Source of the DNA: Phycisphaerae bacterium
GTDB taxonomy: Bacteria > Planctomycetota > Phycisphaerae > Sedimentisphaerales > Anaerohalosphaeraceae
Assembly (NCBI GenBank): GCA_018052735.1
Contig: JAGPMT010000002.1
Coordinates: forward strand, 62,001-126,000
Length of the DNA: 64,000 bases
Direction of reading: 5' to 3'
In this document: piece by piece, positions 32,472 through 42,475 of the stretch
Numbering within the stretch: position 1 is the stretch's first letter
Layout of the letters: each line of letters opens with the position of its first letter
Notes under the pieces: generated by a model
What the model was told of the DNA's origin: nothing
Databases searched by the model: none
The model's input: only the letters and a program-made list of their open reading frames with translations
Position numbers and translations under genes: made by a program

Positions 32472-33059
32472 TTAAAAGTTTTTGATGCCGGTAAAGACGA
32501 TTTGAGCGGCCAGCGCCGTCAGGACAAGAGCAGTCAGCTTGGTCATCACGGCAATCACTTTTTGTCCGAAGATATTGCGGAGCTGGTCAGCCATAAGCAG
32601 AAAAAGGGACATAGTCACAGCAGCGGCTAAGATGCCGGCAAACATAACAAGCCGCTCATGGGGATTTGTAATTTGGGTTCCCCAGACCATCAGTGTGCCG
32701 ATAGTACCGGGACCTACGATAATCGGCAGCCCCAGCGGAACAACCGCAAAATCTTCGCCTTCCGTATGCTGCGGGGGCTTGCTGATGCCCAGTACCAGCA
32801 TTACCGAAGTCAAAAACAGAGTTGTTCCTGTGCCTATCTGAAAGGCCGCCAGCGTAATTCCCAGTAGGCCGAACAGGGGTTTTCCGAAAAAGAAAAAGAC
32901 CGTTACTGCAATCAGAACAGTTGCAGAGGCCCGCATTGCAGCCCGCCGGCGGCTTGATGCATCCATTTCCTCGGCCATTTTTAAAAATAGTGACATCGTA
33001 AAAAACGGCGCCAGCAGAAAAAACATCTTAATATAGGTATTTACAAACAGCGAAAGCAT
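32472..33059 (-). CDS. MarC family membrane protein (end of serpin operon)
   Basis: A 195-residue membrane protein of the MarC family with about six helices. Family motifs are AFFT-like APFFTMSLFLKMAEEM at the N-terminus, GTTLFLTSVMLVLGIS, VPLGLPIIVGPGTIGTLMV and GQKVIAVMTKLTALVLTALA. MarC function is unknown; the old link to multiple antibiotic resistance was not upheld. It begins 13 bases after the ADP-ribosylglycohydrolase gene and is the last gene of the sigma/anti-sigma/serpin operon. A second MarC lies just upstream of that operon. Confidence 0.9.
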   Translation of the reverse strand: MLSLFVNTYIKMFFLLAPFFTMSLFLKMAEEMDASSRRRAAMRASATVLIAVTVFFFFGKPLFGLLGITLAAFQIGTGTTLFLTSVMLVLGISKPPQHTEGEDFAVVPLGLPIIVGPGTIGTLMVWGTQITNPHERLVMFAGILAAAVTMSLFLLMADQLRNIFGQKVIAVMTKLTALVLTALAAQIVFTGIKNF

Positions 33060-33072
33060 ACAGGGCCTTTTG

Positions 33073-33849
33073 TTATCGAATTTTCCCGTATTTATCCTCG
33101 AAAGCGCCGATTATGTCAACAAATTCCTGCGGAAGCCGCAGCAGGGCTTGGTCGATTATCCATTGGGGAATTTTCTGATAAAACGCCTGTGCAATGCCGC
33201 CGGCAATACAGGCCAGCGTGTCGCTGTCGCCGCCGAGAGAAACAGCCAGGTGGATAGTATGTTCAAAATCCGTCGAATCAAAAAATGCCGTAAGGGCTTC
33301 CGGCACGGTTTTTTGACAGGACACATTAAATTGGTATGTCGGCCGAATTTGTTCGATTGTGCGATTCAGGTCATATCCAAAGCGGCGGCGGATTTCCTGT
33401 CGGATAGAGTCCTTATCACAGCCGCAGCGAGCCAGATAAATCGCCAAAGCCGTTGCCTGAGCTCCCTTGATGCCTTCGGGATGATTATGGGTTGGCTCGG
33501 CGCTGCGCCGGGCTTCTTTTAAGACGGCCTCAACCGTGTCAAACGCAAAGCCGACCGGACTGACCCGCATTGCGGAGCCGTTGCCCCAGCTGTTATACGG
33601 TCCTGCATTGTCCGACATCAGCCAGAGCCGGAAATTGCTGCCGTAGCCGCGCTGCGGGTAGCGCCTGCCGAAATCCCGATAGACAGCGGCGTAATCCAAG
33701 CCGTACAAAATCGCCTTCGCAGCCGCTGCAGTCATTACTGTATCATCTGTGAAGGTGCAGGCCTCTTGGAACAAAGGAAAATCGGCAGTCTTAATCTGTT
33801 TCCATTCGTACACAGAACCGACGATATCACCGATTATTGCTCCGAGCAT
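33073..33849 (-). CDS. ADP-ribosylglycohydrolase family protein
   Basis: A 258-residue protein of the ARH/DraG family, which removes ADP-ribose from proteins or small molecules using magnesium. The N-terminal MLGAIIGDIVGSVYEW, the metal motif TFTDDTVMT, and the second metal site GGDSDTLACIAGGIAQA are all present. The start at 33849 matches relatives; the frame runs to 33906. It lies 63 bases after the DUF4139 gene in the serpin operon, where an ADP-ribose-removing enzyme is unexpected. No ADP-ribosyltransferase is seen in the window. Confidence 0.92.
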   Translation of the reverse strand: MLGAIIGDIVGSVYEWKQIKTADFPLFQEACTFTDDTVMTAAAAKAILYGLDYAAVYRDFGRRYPQRGYGSNFRLWLMSDNAGPYNSWGNGSAMRVSPVGFAFDTVEAVLKEARRSAEPTHNHPEGIKGAQATALAIYLARCGCDKDSIRQEIRRRFGYDLNRTIEQIRPTYQFNVSCQKTVPEALTAFFDSTDFEHTIHLAVSLGGDSDTLACIAGGIAQAFYQKIPQWIIDQALLRLPQEFVDIIGAFEDKYGKIR

Positions 33850-33912
33850 CGCTGCGACCCCAATAAAGACGAACCTTGTTGGCTGCCTTGCCTTAGCAGC
33901 GGTCAATTTCCT

Positions 33913-35359: not shown

Positions 35360-36502
35360 TTACGGACGGACATTGATTCGGCTGTAGCGCATCTCCAATT
35401 CCTTGACTGCCGGACCGTCTTGGGTACGGGCAGGCAGCTGGATTTCAAACTCCAGCGTCGAGGCATCTTTGCGGGTGTATTCCATATTGCAGTTCTTCAT
35501 TTCCCACTGCCCCGGAATGTGCTGTATCATCGTCAGCACGGCCGGCTTGTCTTTGAAATTCTCAATTTTGGCGGTGATAACTTCGTCGGTGTCATAAAGC
35601 ACAATGGCTCCGGCATTGTTTTTGCGGAGGTTGATGCGGTCGTTTTTCATCTGCCGCTGGGTGACTACGATATCGCGGCTGTCGCCGATATAGACTTCTG
35701 TTTTCTGGCCGACCGGCACGATAGAAGTGTAGTCCTCGCCCAGAAAGATGGTGCTTTCGTGTCCATCATCCTGAAACAGCCGCATCTTACCGCCCCAGAG
35801 CGAAAAGTCGCCCAGCCCGCTTTTTTTGTCATTGACGATGCGATAACTGACAGGGATGCCGATGTTGCGGTTTTCAACCTGTTCCGGATCCCAGGGCAGC
35901 TTGGCTGCGTCCCAGACCCAAATCTTGGTGATGGGTACTTCGGGGGCTTTGAGAAACAAAAGCTGCTTGGTTTCCTCATGGGCAATGGACTGCTCGAAAC
36001 TGTCGCCGTAGTCCAGCAATACGGCGGCCTTGTCAAAATCCTCGCCGGAAAAGTTCCGCAGAATCAGATAGCTCTTGAGATCAAGCTTGGTTTCATCTTT
36101 GTCGGCGACGGCTTTGTAGGTTACCAAGCGATCGATATTGGCCAGCAGATAGCTGATGCGGACCGTTTCAGCATAATCGCCCTCGGCGGCAATCTCCCAA
36201 ACCAGAGCCGCCTCGTTGGGCGGATAGCTGACATTGAGCAGCTTAACCTGTTCCGGATGGTCCAGAATGATCAGCCGAATCGAATCCGGATCGATGCTGA
36301 CAGCATTCCACGAGAAGTCCACTTTGTTTAGTCCCTTCTGAAGCGTCAGAACGCGCTCTTCCTCAATCAGTGTGGCAGCCGGATTATCCAGCCGAATAAC
36401 GGTTGCATCCCGCTGCGGCAGGGCGACCAGTTTGGTCCGCCCGTGTGCGGCAGCTGCAACAGCCAGAACGGCGATGCTGGTTAAAATGGTTTTTGCTTTC
36501 AT
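35360..36502 (-). CDS. Exported DUF4139-related protein, divergent copy
   Basis: A 380-residue secreted protein with signal peptide (TILTSIAVLAVAAAAHG). It has the same order of features as the neighbouring DUF4139 proteins in shorter form: TKLVALPQRDATVIRLDNPA, VLTLQKGLNKVDFSWNAVSI, VRISYLLANIDRLVTYKAVA, SYLILRNFSGEDFDKAAVLL and, near the end, MIQHIPGQWEMKN. The family relation is judged by eye and is weaker than between the other two copies. It starts 26 bases after the serpin gene. Function unknown. Confidence 0.75.
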   Translation of the reverse strand: MKAKTILTSIAVLAVAAAAHGRTKLVALPQRDATVIRLDNPAATLIEEERVLTLQKGLNKVDFSWNAVSIDPDSIRLIILDHPEQVKLLNVSYPPNEAALVWEIAAEGDYAETVRISYLLANIDRLVTYKAVADKDETKLDLKSYLILRNFSGEDFDKAAVLLDYGDSFEQSIAHEETKQLLFLKAPEVPITKIWVWDAAKLPWDPEQVENRNIGIPVSYRIVNDKKSGLGDFSLWGGKMRLFQDDGHESTIFLGEDYTSIVPVGQKTEVYIGDSRDIVVTQRQMKNDRINLRKNNAGAIVLYDTDEVITAKIENFKDKPAVLTMIQHIPGQWEMKNCNMEYTRKDASTLEFEIQLPARTQDGPAVKELEMRYSRINVRP

Positions 36503-36528: not shown

Positions 36529-37785
36529 TTATTGTTCTTGGACAGGATTCATAATCCGGCCGATGAATAAAATACTGCCGGTTTTATTATCTTTTATGAC
36601 AAATACAAACGGCCGATCGGCTCGGAATACCAGCGGAGGTTCAGGTACAGCGGCTGTGGGGGCAATCACGGCTGTGGCGGCGGCTGCCTCGGTGCCTTCT
36701 TCATTTACTTCTACGAATGCTTTATGAAGGACATCGGATATAAAAAGGTCTTTTGTGCCGGTTATCCCTGAAAAGTCTGCTGTGCTGCCAAAGGCGTCCG
36801 GCATGCCCATTGCTGCCAGCGTTTGAGACAGCGAAAACTGCGACTCTATCTTAAATCGCGGCAGGTAAACGTCAACCGCCTTCATTTGCATGCTGTTCAT
36901 CCATTGGGTCAGCAGTTTTGCTGTAAGATCCTCTTCAAAGCGTCCTGCATATCCTTTTTCCGGCAGCAGCACGACCATGCTCAAGTCGCCGCCTTTGTAC
37001 GGCAGTTCGAGCGTCTCTACCTTAATGCCGCGGGCAGTTCGGAAGCTGACGTGTTCTCCATATCTGTATTTGCCGCGGCGGTGCATCAACGGCGCCGGAA
37101 CCGTCCTGTCATGCGAAATATAAAAAGGCTCATTTTGGGTCAGTTTTGGATCAAACTCTTCAGCCCAGCTCCCTTTAAAATAAATGGCGTTGGTCAGCAC
37201 CAGCCGCGTTGCCGCACTCAGGGCGCCGGCGGGAATCAGGTTTTTGATTTTGTCCTGAGTTTTGTCCTGAATCCATTGATTGATTTTCAGCCGCACGGCT
37301 TCTGTTTCGCTGATAAAATTCACAGTTTCCAGTCCGGCATGGTAAAAATTCTTATTGAGCATGATGAAAGAATCCAAAAATGGATAATCCTTCTGCCCCC
37401 ACAGTGCGTTGGCGATGGAAAGCAGATAGTCGCCTTTCTGTCCCTGCCGGTTCATCTGGGTTATCAGCCGGCCGAATGCCGGATGAAAGGGCTCGGACAG
37501 CTCCAGAGCATTGGGTTCTGTATCGAAGGGAAAATGCAGCGTCTGGGCCATTTGCCGAGCAGTTTGCTCTTTTGCGCCTGCATAGACAAGTGCCAGCGCT
37601 GTCGAAATGCTGAAAGGAGAGAAAAACAGATTGCCATCCTGATTTTTCAACTGTGCGTAAAGTTCCAAAGCAAAGGCGGTATTGCCCTCAACAATGGCTT
37701 TGCTGTATGGTTGGAATTCAGCCCAACAAATGCCTGCGGCCATCAGCAGCACTGCGGCCGGCATGAACAGTGCTTTCGGTTTCAT
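36529..37785 (-). CDS. Exported serpin (serine protease inhibitor)
   Basis: A 418-residue serpin with a signal peptide (AAVLLMAAGICWA). Core motifs are NLFFSPFSISTALALVYAGA, VLTNAIYFKGSWAEEFDP, VVLLPEKGYAG and DRPFVFVIKDNKTGSILFIG then RIMNP. The reactive-loop hinge EEGTEAAAAT has the small residues needed for loop insertion, so it should be an inhibitor by suicide trapping. Counting from the hinge, P1-P1' falls in the TAAVPE segment, probably Ala-Ala or Thr-Ala, which suits elastase- or subtilisin-like proteases rather than trypsin-like ones. Its ATG overlaps the anti-sigma stop by four bases, with AAGGAG upstream. Confidence 0.95.
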   Translation of the reverse strand: MKPKALFMPAAVLLMAAGICWAEFQPYSKAIVEGNTAFALELYAQLKNQDGNLFFSPFSISTALALVYAGAKEQTARQMAQTLHFPFDTEPNALELSEPFHPAFGRLITQMNRQGQKGDYLLSIANALWGQKDYPFLDSFIMLNKNFYHAGLETVNFISETEAVRLKINQWIQDKTQDKIKNLIPAGALSAATRLVLTNAIYFKGSWAEEFDPKLTQNEPFYISHDRTVPAPLMHRRGKYRYGEHVSFRTARGIKVETLELPYKGGDLSMVVLLPEKGYAGRFEEDLTAKLLTQWMNSMQMKAVDVYLPRFKIESQFSLSQTLAAMGMPDAFGSTADFSGITGTKDLFISDVLHKAFVEVNEEGTEAAAATAVIAPTAAVPEPPLVFRADRPFVFVIKDNKTGSILFIGRIMNPVQEQ

Positions 37786-39653
37786 TTTTCCTGCTCCTTG
37801 CTTTGTGCAGTCATTTTTTCAACATAATATTCGCTTCGCCGCTGCTGATATTTGGTGACGGTATAGCCAAATGTTTTTTCCGAGCGCGGGGCAAGCACCA
37901 GTGTAAATCGGGCATGGCTTTTGTCGTGCTTTGTATAAGCAGCATGCGGTGTGGAATTACCATTGGCGTTTATGCCCGATTCCCAGTAATCGTTTATTTT
38001 CAATTCCCAATAGTCGGTTCCGAAGTTTCGAGTTATCTCAATCTCTGCAGGAATCTGGCGGGTATTGGTCAGTTTCAATTGCCACGATTCGATTTCATCC
38101 CAGCCGTCGATATCTCCATTGTTGTTGAATGTATAGTTGTCTGTCCGGCTGTCTGTCTGTATCGGCTCTACCTTGACCAGCAACGCCGCACCGAGGTTCA
38201 GTTCCGCATCTTCATTGACAGGGATATACTTTACCTCAGCAGACCCGATATATGATAAATTCTTTTTTTCATTAAGTCGGCGGTATAGTCGAACATTGCC
38301 TTCCGGCAGGGGAGTATTGCCCAGTTTGTGGGCTGCATCATTTTTGAACGAGATAAATCGGATGGTATCTGTCCCGTACCGGTCTTCGTCATATTTGTAC
38401 AGGCTTTTGACCGGTATGCCGCTGGCATCCAGTGATTCCAATCGCTTGGCCCATGCATTCGGCAAGTCTTCAGTGCCTTCAATAGTATAGAGATAATATT
38501 CGCTAAGAGCCTCCTTTTGGATATCCTTGATTTCGTATTTGAATGCTCCGCCGCCGAATCTTCCGCTCGTATCAGAAAAAAGCATGCCTGTCTGAGCGAA
38601 ATCAGCCAGCAAAGGGACTTTTTTGAGAGCATCTTTTTCATCCTGCTGAGGAACATCTGGTCCATACGGGTAATACCGACCGGCCAGATAATTGATGGTT
38701 TCAGTCAGTCGTGTCTGGCCGACGACCAGCCGCGTCTGGGCATTCTGGAAATCTTGGCCGGAGCTGTTAGCGACATTTACAAATCCTTTCAAGTCCAATG
38801 TTGTCTCATCTTCGTTTAGCGTTCCTTCATAGAATGCCCGCCAAGACAACCCGCTGACAAAATAGGTAATCTCAAACGACACCGCACCCTCAACTTCCGA
38901 ACGAATGAGCCAGCGTCCAATGTCTTTCAAACGGGCCGGGTAAACAAGCTGCTGAGTATCGATTTTGTCGGCATACTCCAGCGGCTGAAGCGATAAACTT
39001 GTCGGATCAATCAAGGTTTCAGCCCACATAAACTGAAGCCAGTTCCAGCCGGGCTTCAATGTCAGACGCCGGATATCCCGAACCAGCGTCAAATCGGCGG
39101 TGTTATATATTGTAACCTGCATTGTGTCAGGGGCAGGTAAAACAACCAGTTCTATGGCGCTGGCGGGGGCAAATGGCGGACTGTCTGGTATAGAATCAGA
39201 TGATACAATTTTAACACTGTTTTGCACTGGCTGTGCACCATCTTGGATGAATTTTGTGTCAGAGAGGTAATCTCTGCTGTCTTTGAATTGTTCCCTTTTT
39301 TTGGGACCGAAACGGTCGGCTGCACCGATTTTGTTTTGGCTGTCAGGCAGAAATATCCATAATGCTGTAACCACTAAAGCAGCTGCGGCCGCCCAGCCAA
39401 TCCATACCTTACGGTAAAAGGCACCTGTTTTTTCTCCAGCCATTTTAGACATAAGTGTTTTAGAAACAAGATCATCGGGCAGTTCAACATCACCTTCAAG
39501 AACAGACATTACAGAGAATTTTCTTTTTAATTCTGACAAATGCTGTCGGCATTCGGGGCATTTGTCTAAATGCTGACGAACTGCTAAGCCGGCGTTTGCT
39601 TCAAGAAGCCCAAAGGCATATTGAATAAGAATGTCTTGATTGAAGTGATTCAT
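37782..39653 (-). CDS. Anti-sigma factor fused to an extracytoplasmic DUF4139-type domain
   Basis: A 623-residue membrane protein. Residues 1-60 form a zinc-binding anti-sigma domain (QHLDKCPECRQHL, His28, Cys32, Cys35). One membrane helix follows (WIGWAAAAALVVTALWIFLP, about 84-103), then a linker, and from about residue 168 a domain homologous to the exported DUF4139 protein at 33913-35271 (IYNTADLTLVRDIRRLTLKP, FVSGLSWRAFYEGTL, NAQTRLVVGQTRL). It should hold the sigma factor at the membrane and release it after an external signal is read by the outer domain. It overlaps sigma upstream and serpin downstream, both by ATGA. Confidence 0.88.
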   Translation of the reverse strand: MNHFNQDILIQYAFGLLEANAGLAVRQHLDKCPECRQHLSELKRKFSVMSVLEGDVELPDDLVSKTLMSKMAGEKTGAFYRKVWIGWAAAAALVVTALWIFLPDSQNKIGAADRFGPKKREQFKDSRDYLSDTKFIQDGAQPVQNSVKIVSSDSIPDSPPFAPASAIELVVLPAPDTMQVTIYNTADLTLVRDIRRLTLKPGWNWLQFMWAETLIDPTSLSLQPLEYADKIDTQQLVYPARLKDIGRWLIRSEVEGAVSFEITYFVSGLSWRAFYEGTLNEDETTLDLKGFVNVANSSGQDFQNAQTRLVVGQTRLTETINYLAGRYYPYGPDVPQQDEKDALKKVPLLADFAQTGMLFSDTSGRFGGGAFKYEIKDIQKEALSEYYLYTIEGTEDLPNAWAKRLESLDASGIPVKSLYKYDEDRYGTDTIRFISFKNDAAHKLGNTPLPEGNVRLYRRLNEKKNLSYIGSAEVKYIPVNEDAELNLGAALLVKVEPIQTDSRTDNYTFNNNGDIDGWDEIESWQLKLTNTRQIPAEIEITRNFGTDYWELKINDYWESGINANGNSTPHAAYTKHDKSHARFTLVLAPRSEKTFGYTVTKYQQRRSEYYVEKMTAQSKEQEK

Positions 39654-40237: not shown

Positions 40238-40260
40238 ATAGGAATCCTGCTGAGGATATA

Positions 40261-40288
40261 GACAATCATACTACCCCAAAGGTTGACA
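40261..40288 (-). promoter_or_regulatory. Candidate ECF-dependent promoter of the sigma/serpin operon
   Basis: On the minus strand TGTCAACC (40288-40281) is followed after 16 bases by TGTC (40264-40261). The AAC core at -35 and GTC-like -10 at this spacing is the general layout of ECF promoters. Transcription would start about 15-20 bases before the sigma start codon. Other sigma factors cannot be excluded. Confidence 0.45.
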
Positions 40289-40446: not shown

Positions 40447-41022
40447 TCACAAAAACTGCTGAAATCCCTTTCGAATGAGCATCACAGCGATAGCGGCCAG
40501 CAGCAGACTGAAGACTTTGGAAACGGCCTTGGTGCCTGCTTCGCCGAGGGCCTTCAGCAAGATATCTGAAGCAGCAAAAACAATTCCGGCCAGCAGGATA
40601 TTGGCAATCACAGAAATCAGCGTAGCGGCAATGCCGTATTCGGAGATAATCAGCAAAGAGGTCGTCAGAACAGCCGGACCGGCAATCAAAGGGGTGCCCA
40701 GCGGCACGGCCCCCAGTGGTTCACCGGGATTGCGGCGTGCCTTTACAGGATTCAGAATATCCGTAATCGCCAGACAGAACAAAATTGCCCCGCCGGCTGC
40801 CATAAAATCGCCGATAGTGATGCCCAGCAGATGAAAAACGCCTTTTCCGACACAGATGAATCCTACAGCAACCGCCGCGGCGGTCAGCATCGACTGGATG
40901 ATAATTCGCCGTTTTTCCAGCCGGCTCAGACCTTCAGTCAGCGAGACGAATATCGGCAGCACTCCGATGGGATCCACCGCTACAAACATTGGAATCAATG
41001 CCAGCAGAATATCTTTGAGCAT
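40447..41022 (-). CDS. MarC family membrane protein (second copy)
   Basis: A 191-residue membrane protein with about six helices. MarC motifs are FVAVDPIGVLPIFVSLTEGL at the N-terminus, AAGGAILFCLAITDIL, AVPLGTPLIAGPAVLTTSL and AVMLIRKGFQ at the end. Function is unknown. It belongs to a different subgroup from the copy at 32472-33059, which lacks the DPIG motif. It is 209 bases upstream of the sigma gene on the same strand and probably has its own transcript, because an ECF-like promoter lies in the gap. A divergent CreD-like gene starts 184 bases away. Confidence 0.92.
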   Translation of the reverse strand: MLKDILLALIPMFVAVDPIGVLPIFVSLTEGLSRLEKRRIIIQSMLTAAAVAVGFICVGKGVFHLLGITIGDFMAAGGAILFCLAITDILNPVKARRNPGEPLGAVPLGTPLIAGPAVLTTSLLIISEYGIAATLISVIANILLAGIVFAASDILLKALGEAGTKAVSKVFSLLLAAIAVMLIRKGFQQFL

Positions 41023-41206: not shown

Positions 41207-42475
41207 ATGGCCAGACGAATAGCAGCTATAGCTTTTATTTATGCTTGTACGGCGGCAGCGTGGATGATACTGTCAGTTACAATGCTGGTTCGTACGGAAA
41301 GTCTGGATACTCGCCTGCACGAAGCTGTCGGCCAGTTGTGGGGAACGGCTCATACTCAAACGCAGCCGCAGGTATATTATAAAATCCCATCCTCTTCAAG
41401 CCTGAGCGAATCCAATGAGCAGAACGAGACTGTAGAACATCTTGCTTTGGACAGCAGTCAAATAGCGGTTGATTTGAAACTGGACTACAGACGCAAAGGA
41501 CTGCTGTGGTATTCAGTGTATCAGGTGCAATTCGCCGGCCAATACCGAATTGCCAATCCCGGCAGTCAGCAGCGTGAGATTTATGTGGATTTTGCTTTTC
41601 CGTCTGAACAGGCGATTTATGACAATTTCCGTTTTGCTGCGGATGGACAGGATATTACCAATTCAGCATTCAAGACGGGCCGCTTTGTCCATGCTTTTCA
41701 GATGGACCCCGGCCAAACGAAGGAAATAGAAATTGCCTATACATCGCAGGGTATGGATGAGTGGATTTATGATTTCGGGGGCGGTGTCAAGCAGGTGCGG
41801 AATTTTGTGTTTGTGATGACGACAGATTTTGACCGGATTGATTTTCCGCAGAGGAGTGTTTCGCCGACAGTCAAGGCCAAGACTGCAAAAGGGTGGAAAC
41901 TGGTATGGGCCTACAACAATATGCTGACAGGCGCCTGCATAGGGATGACAATGCCCAAAAAACTCAATCCGGGACCGTGGGTCAGCCGGCTGACGGCTGC
42001 CGCCCCTGTTTCGCTGTTTCTGTTTTTCTTTCTGCTGTTTATCTGCACAACCCTGCGAGAAATTAAAATCCATCCTATGAATTACTTTTTCCTCGGCGCA
42101 GCTTTTTTCAGTTTTCATCTGCTGCTGGCCTATCTGGTCGATTTCATTTCTATTCACATTGCTTTCTGGATCTGTTCGGCTGTTTCGATTGTGCTGGTAG
42201 TTTCCTATATGCGGCTGGTGGCCGGACCGCGATTTGCCTTTCTGGAAGTTGCCCTTTTCCAGCTTGTGTATCTGGTTGTCTTTTCTTACACATTTTTCTT
42301 TGAGGGCTATACCGGACTGGCAATCACGGTACTGTGTATCTGTACGCTGTTTGCAGTGATGCAGATGACCGGCCGGCTTGACTGGGAAAAGGTCTTTGCT
42401 AACGGCCTCCCAAAGCCGGCTAAGTCCCGCAAACCGCAGGACGGGGGGCAAAACCGCCCCAATGTACCGGACTAA
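41207..42475 (+). CDS. CreD-like inner membrane protein
   Basis: A 422-residue membrane protein. One N-terminal helix (IAAIAFIYACTAAAWMILSV) is followed by a large outer domain (about 30-260) and a C-terminal bundle of about six helices starting at LTAAAPVSLFLFFFLLFICT. The ending FAVMQMTGRLDWEKVF resembles the C-terminus of E. coli CreD, an inner membrane protein linked to colicin E2 tolerance and envelope stress through CreBC. No creBC genes are near. GCAGGAGG precedes ATG 41207. Assignment to the CreD family is moderate, since sequence identity in the outer domain cannot be judged by eye. Confidence 0.65.
   Translation: MARRIAAIAFIYACTAAAWMILSVTMLVRTESLDTRLHEAVGQLWGTAHTQTQPQVYYKIPSSSSLSESNEQNETVEHLALDSSQIAVDLKLDYRRKGLLWYSVYQVQFAGQYRIANPGSQQREIYVDFAFPSEQAIYDNFRFAADGQDITNSAFKTGRFVHAFQMDPGQTKEIEIAYTSQGMDEWIYDFGGGVKQVRNFVFVMTTDFDRIDFPQRSVSPTVKAKTAKGWKLVWAYNNMLTGACIGMTMPKKLNPGPWVSRLTAAAPVSLFLFFFLLFICTTLREIKIHPMNYFFLGAAFFSFHLLLAYLVDFISIHIAFWICSAVSIVLVVSYMRLVAGPRFAFLEVALFQLVYLVVFSYTFFFEGYTGLAITVLCICTLFAVMQMTGRLDWEKVFANGLPKPAKSRKPQDGGQNRPNVPD

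Follow-up and report, generated by a model that had tools for sequence, protein, structure and literature searches.

A predicted anti-sigma factor of a Phycisphaerae operon carries as its outer domain a paralogue of the exported proteins encoded beside it

The DNA analysed here (the window) is a stretch of 64,000 nucleotides from a bacterium of the class Phycisphaerae. It contains an operon with the gene order sigma, AS, serpin, B and C, which is listed below together with its predicted promoter.

40260..40288, minus strand: predicted ECF promoter, TGTCAACC-N17-GTCT, preceding the sigma gene, with its first base 51 nt before the start codon
39650..40237, minus strand: ECF sigma factor, 195 aa (Pfam Sigma70_r2, E 1.4e-13; Sigma70_r4_2, E 1.2e-21)
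37782..39653, minus strand: AS, 623 aa, predicted membrane anti-sigma factor whose outer domain is a DUF4139 paralogue
36529..37785, minus strand: serpin, exported, 418 aa (PF00079 over its full length, E 2e-126)
35360..36502, minus strand: B, exported DUF4139-like divergent paralogue and constant partner of C, 380 aa
33913..35271, minus strand: C, exported DUF4139 protein with a signal peptide and without an anti-sigma domain, 452 aa

The sigma and AS genes overlap by 4 nt, as do the AS and serpin genes; clear ribosome-binding sites precede serpin, B and C, and a terminator scan listed none in the gaps between the operon genes. The sigma factor consists of regions 2 and 4 only, without region 3 or 1.1, and in NCBIfam it scores above the cut-off of sigma70-ECF (TIGR02937, 110.3 bits against 42.9), as an ECF sigma factor does. 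ECF sigma genes are accompanied by an adjacent cognate anti-sigma gene and an autoregulatory promoter of the AAC / CGT type (PMC8103513), and the locus displays both, the promoter as a matter of sequence conservation only. Genes for MarC-family membrane proteins flank the operon on both sides on the same strand (32472-33059 and 40447-41022), and an ADP-ribosylglycohydrolase gene (33073-33906) begins a few bases past C and is apparently co-transcribed in the window. Neither is counted as a core member of the operon, as the loci of relatives showed no counterpart of MarC or of the ADP-ribosylglycohydrolase behind C. A CreD-like inner membrane protein (41207-42475) contains a DUF4139-like stretch, with a very weak match (E 0.13).

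The AS protein is divided as follows.

39429..39653, minus strand: residues 1-75, cytoplasmic anti-sigma domain of the zinc type (H3, H28-x3-C32-x2-C35), modelled by AF2 as four helices
39354..39419, minus strand: residues 79-100, transmembrane helix in the AF2 model, with hydrophobic windows at the same place in orthologues
39159..39176, minus strand: residues 160-165, PFAPAS, a segment specific to the tether, on the border of the outer domain
37830..39164, minus strand: residues 164-608, outer domain, paralogue of C

A single transmembrane helix is thus followed by a variable linker and then by the outer domain. The N-terminal domain of the window protein alone falls just under the Pfam cut-off of zf-HC2 (19.7 against 22.2 bits). 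Its residues H3, H28, C32 and C35 are invariant or nearly so among 47 AS orthologues, and its profile matches the solved structures of ChrR (E 0.0019) and RsiW (E 0.0034). With its helical fold and H-x24-H-x3-C-x2-C pattern, AS is a predicted member of the zinc, class I anti-sigma factors of the ChrR, RsiW and RseA type, and differs from them in its outer domain. Fused domains are reported to be strikingly conserved within class I groups (PMC7406223), and in AS conservation is among the highest in the outer domain and at its PFAPAS junction. The AF2 model of AS has a mean pLDDT of 80.8, with most of the outer domain above 90 outside two loops. Structure searches with this model returned only multidomain beta-sandwich matches, ribophorin I/Ost1 among them (E 1e-7, TM about 0.13), too weak to name a fold relative. 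The AF2 models of AS and B each independently give ribophorin I/Ost1 as their best PDB matches, with low TM-scores, and a distant relationship in fold between DUF4139-type proteins and ribophorin I/Ost1 is possible. Some orthologues extend beyond the outer domain: one fused anti-sigma factor carries about 400 additional C-terminal residues of repeat-like sequence (L061, 7376-10495), another a C-terminal LamG-like domain recognized by eye (L068, 105-2906), and 2 of the 47 orthologues match Pfam Secretin.

The paralogy of the outer domain and C extends over nearly their whole length. BLASTP aligns AS residues 164-608 with C residues 18-444 at 220/447 identical positions (49%, 417 bits, E 2e-145), bearing out the lengthwise alignment proposed in an earlier sequence-only reading of this locus, whose three quoted peptide pairs are all real. 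B is a third paralogue that has diverged further (32% over 147 aa, E 2e-18), and the AS domain and B are the only close relatives of C in the whole genome. Against a Pfam cut-off of 31.8 bits for DUF4139 (PF13598), AS scores 35.5 and C 47.9, while B remains below at 11.9; the domain is matched by all 47 AS orthologues at E <= 0.01. The resemblance to the MuiA family is limited to this shared DUF4139 match and a weak similarity to TIGR02231, whose cut-off of 112.6 lies far above the scores of AS (29.4), C (38.1) and B (14), and Pfam and NCBIfam scans found no DUF4140 in AS or C. AS and C both keep 95 identical near-invariant positions, which may simply represent the core of the fold. The positions that discriminate AS from C (F161, S165, E168, M209, L222, L242, R247 and L249) are concentrated in the domain's N-terminal part; with fixed differences at several positions, the two proteins may no longer have a common binding target.

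We searched the relatives of the window genome and 347 genomes of its class for these proteins. Within this search, the fused AS is confined to the order of the window (families f1, f5 and f7), where the genes are arranged as sigma-AS-(serpin)-B-C, often with several copies of C. The other orders of the class have only the free proteins, at about 36-46% identity and with B followed by one to three C genes, and B-C cassettes without sigma or AS occur class-wide. Judged by these sequences, B-C is the ancestral cassette of the class. A scan of named genomes, in which PFAPAS served as the search pattern, yielded 72 loci, mostly from Phycisphaerae/Sedimentisphaerales and some from Kiritimatiellota, including Pontiellaceae bacterium B1224.

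Phylogenies of the DUF4139 domains, three rooted on class-level proteins and one unrooted, were read by their branch supports. AS and C form separate clades in all four trees, and the fused domains make up one clade, to which the two careful rooted trees give supports of 99/97 and 100/100. The base of the C side is less well resolved; one rooted tree shows C as paraphyletic with respect to the fused clade, in keeping with a derivation of AS from C, and the outgroup is set off by long branches, so that the exact root is uncertain. The fused domains of Kiritimatiellota nest within the planctomycete fused clade, which suggests transfer of the operon. The class-wide occurrence of free B-C cassettes and the restricted distribution of fused forms indicate that the exported protein came first and that one old duplication and fusion produced the sensor. 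The sequence comparisons thus give good support to a single ancient event by which the outer domain of AS arose as a duplicate of C, and the earlier proposal that an exported protein was duplicated and joined to a zinc anti-sigma domain agrees with this distribution. That the fusion arose locally, as had also been supposed, is contradicted by the trees. A duplication of C within the genus of the window, followed by fusion, might be read from the shared operon and the 49% identity, yet the fused domains are closest to those of other genera and families across the order and to those of Kiritimatiellota, which leaves such a recent origin with almost no probability.

Free exported proteins are also found nested within the fused clade: in G005 (L040), in genus g49 (L098, L092 and L291) and in the pair L152/L289, with L092 placed by its sequence and L291 in one rooted tree. 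The released copies of L040, L098 and L152 share a gene cluster with the fused gene. By this placement, the sensor domain has been released as a free exported protein at least three independent times. The tether segment is lost or altered in the released copies: in L040 the signal peptide directly precedes VDLVVLP, and L092 and L098 have PAPPAGAIEL. L040 is also altered at all eight positions that discriminate AS from C. Since PFAPAS was the pattern of the named-genome scan, we quote its conservation only from the set found without it, in which FAPAS is present in 31 of 32 fused proteins, behind a linker of about 44-198 residues. The segment is absent from C. Taken together, the sequences are a strong sign that the function of PFAPAS is tied to the tethered state. 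Its distance past the membrane helix, the full length of the linker, makes it unlikely that PFAPAS is an ordinary near-membrane signal-peptidase site.

The TGTCAACC-N17-GTCT motif precedes nearly every sigma gene, as a rule at 54-58 nt from the start codon and mostly within about 60. A relaxed form occurs in 58 of 67 sigma upstream regions, whereas 50 rounds of dinucleotide shuffling gave 1 at most, and several of the nine regions without it are one or two letters off. The Kiritimatiellota loci display a variant, TGTNAACY...CGTA, and the motif is found upstream of B or C in none of 20 class-level B-C cassettes. Searched with a slightly shorter pattern, the window genome contains two exact copies; the operon promoter is the only intergenic one, the other lying inside a rhamnosidase-like ORF. 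With two exact copies, and with one-mismatch sites fewer than control matches, a wide regulon in this genome is rejected. We extended the scan to 148 genomes of the order and inspected 47 exact sites away from sigma genes, a choice that favoured genomes with sigma and AS and was not fully exhaustive; relevant genes lie behind 7 of the 47, against a rough expectation of about 0.01. The motif precedes unlinked C genes (L231, L233 and, with another exported ORF in between, L234), serpin genes from two genomes of a single genus (L236 and L247) and distant DUF4139 proteins (L240 and L265). L231, L233 and L234 share flanking sequence, as recent duplicates that took the promoter along. Elsewhere, the first of the promoter copies in L235 (G413) lies upstream of an ORF with GLUG and LamG-like domains that adjoins the sigma operon (771-2762), and in L273 (G409) a long exported protein without a family assignment has a promoter-like site 77 nt ahead of it.

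The presence of the promoter before unlinked C, serpin and DUF4139 genes and its absence from the 20 class-level cassettes mean that the sigma factor very probably controls the paralogues of its own sensor, as the sequence-only reading had surmised for the exported proteins. It is well supported by these promoter comparisons that the sigma factor would drive its own operon, comprising sigma, AS, the optional serpin, B and C, and that its targets in relatives would extend to C, serpin and other DUF4139 genes at unlinked sites. As C, B and AS are co-transcribed, the promoter alone does not require feedback.

Sigma and AS are jointly absent while serpin-B-C is kept in four genomes that are 99% complete, three of which have a motif-like sequence upstream. 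In genus g2, five genomes keep serpin-B-C without a close sigma homologue, and in four of these a motif-like sequence lies about 100-125 nt upstream of the serpin. In a single case, on a short contig of G024 (L070, 5311-6416), the promoter and the sigma gene are retained with an AS gene that stops short of the outer domain. This truncated protein, together with the variable length of the linker and the additional C-terminal modules, would fit an outer domain that is merely structural, the signal entering through the linker, the membrane or a separate accessory protein. We regard such a role as very improbable: the outer domain and PFAPAS junction are too well conserved within AS, and G024, in which neither B nor C turned up, may no longer respond to the original signal.

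The serpin is present as a single copy in the window genome. It has the small-residue hinge EEGTEAAAAT, predicted to be of the inhibitory type, in addition to its serpin family match. Serpins are found in 44 of 75 genomes with AS or C and in 24 of 73 without them (p 0.002, with kinship ignored). As 31 of the 75, near-complete genomes included, have no serpin, it is not an essential part of the system; the serpin is an optional member of the operon. The literature searched contained no paper joining anti-sigma factors and serpins in Planctomycetes. An inhibitory hinge, a serpin gene placed in the operon or elsewhere under the promoter, and the greater frequency of serpins in genomes with AS or C could all point to an outer domain acting as bait, which hostile or misplaced proteases would cut, freeing sigma, so that the regulon supplies serpin together with fresh B and C. 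The many serpin-free genomes, and an outer domain that is strongly conserved where a bait might be variable, make this explanation improbable.

We propose instead a self-contained ECF circuit whose sensor would be a tethered paralogue of its main target, with feedback through a shared partner, and assign to this reading a probability of roughly 45%. The outer domain of AS and free C would have an envelope partner in common, perhaps B or a ligand that C binds. If the partner were damaged or not occupied by free C, AS would be cut by site-1 and then site-2 proteolysis, and the sigma factor thus released would raise the production of B, C and, where present, the serpin. The free proteins would then satisfy the partner again and the sensor would be spared, with PFAPAS acting as the coupling element between domain and tether. 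The tethered-paralogue circuit is supported by the one old fusion, the class-wide B-C cassette, the distribution of the promoter, the repeated release of the domain, the joint absence of sigma and AS, and the 95 positions shared between AS and C. The window genome contains the site-2-type protease family PF02163. Such proteases occur in nearly all bacteria, and their presence is therefore only permissive for proteolytic release.

The outer domains of RsgI proteins are common to parts of the cellulosome, the secreted system regulated by SigI. In C. thermocellum, RsgI is a single-pass anti-sigma factor with an outer sensor domain that binds the substrate (PMC12203970). AS resembles it as a single-pass anti-sigma factor with an outer sensor drawn from the domain kinds of the regulated secreted system. 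RsgI proteins have varied carbohydrate-binding or glycosidase modules, a self-cleaving periplasmic domain and SigI-type pairing, whereas AS has one fixed domain family represented by a full-length paralogue, a zinc anti-sigma domain and an ECF partner, all encoded in one operon with the paralogues. The ECF type of the sigma factor sets AS apart from the RsgI family, no match to which appeared in Pfam or NCBIfam scans. Following the same logic, the outer domain of AS could bind the external ligand of C and free sigma upon binding, with no feedback or competition from C or B; the additional C-terminal modules on some AS proteins, LamG-like or secretin-like, would accord with this. DUF4139 has no known ligand or binding pocket, however, and that the sensor domain was set free repeatedly makes more sense if such copies have an effect on the sensor, so we consider simple ligand binding unlikely.

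A second parallel is RsiV, a lysozyme receptor controlling SigV, with proteolysis releasing the sigma factor (PMC5014341, PMC4183432). The two systems share an ECF pair, an anti-sigma outer domain in the role of receptor and proteolytic release of sigma, which for AS is proposed; they differ in that RsiV binds lysozyme, whereas the outer domain of AS is a paralogue of the regulated exported proteins. Tentatively, and with odds clearly below even, the sensor might report on the protein family to which it belongs: the tethered domain would compete or pair with free C and B, its repeated release beside the sensor gene would be an evolutionary tuning of this competition, and PFAPAS would couple occupancy to cleavage. 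If this is true, the cell would directly measure whether its exported assembly suffices.

The operon described here represents an unusually direct case from the little-studied Planctomycetota, that of putative sensing by a copy of the system's own product. With a full paralogue of the regulated product as its putative sensor, long fixed and encoded next to that product, the system makes homotypic or shared-partner sensing directly testable. No paper treating DUF4139 together with sigma factors was found in the literature searched, and the operon offers a first view of how DUF4139 proteins of these Planctomycetota may be regulated. The predicted promoter makes the regulon definable among uncultured Planctomycetota as well as in at least one named genome of Pontiellaceae (B1224).
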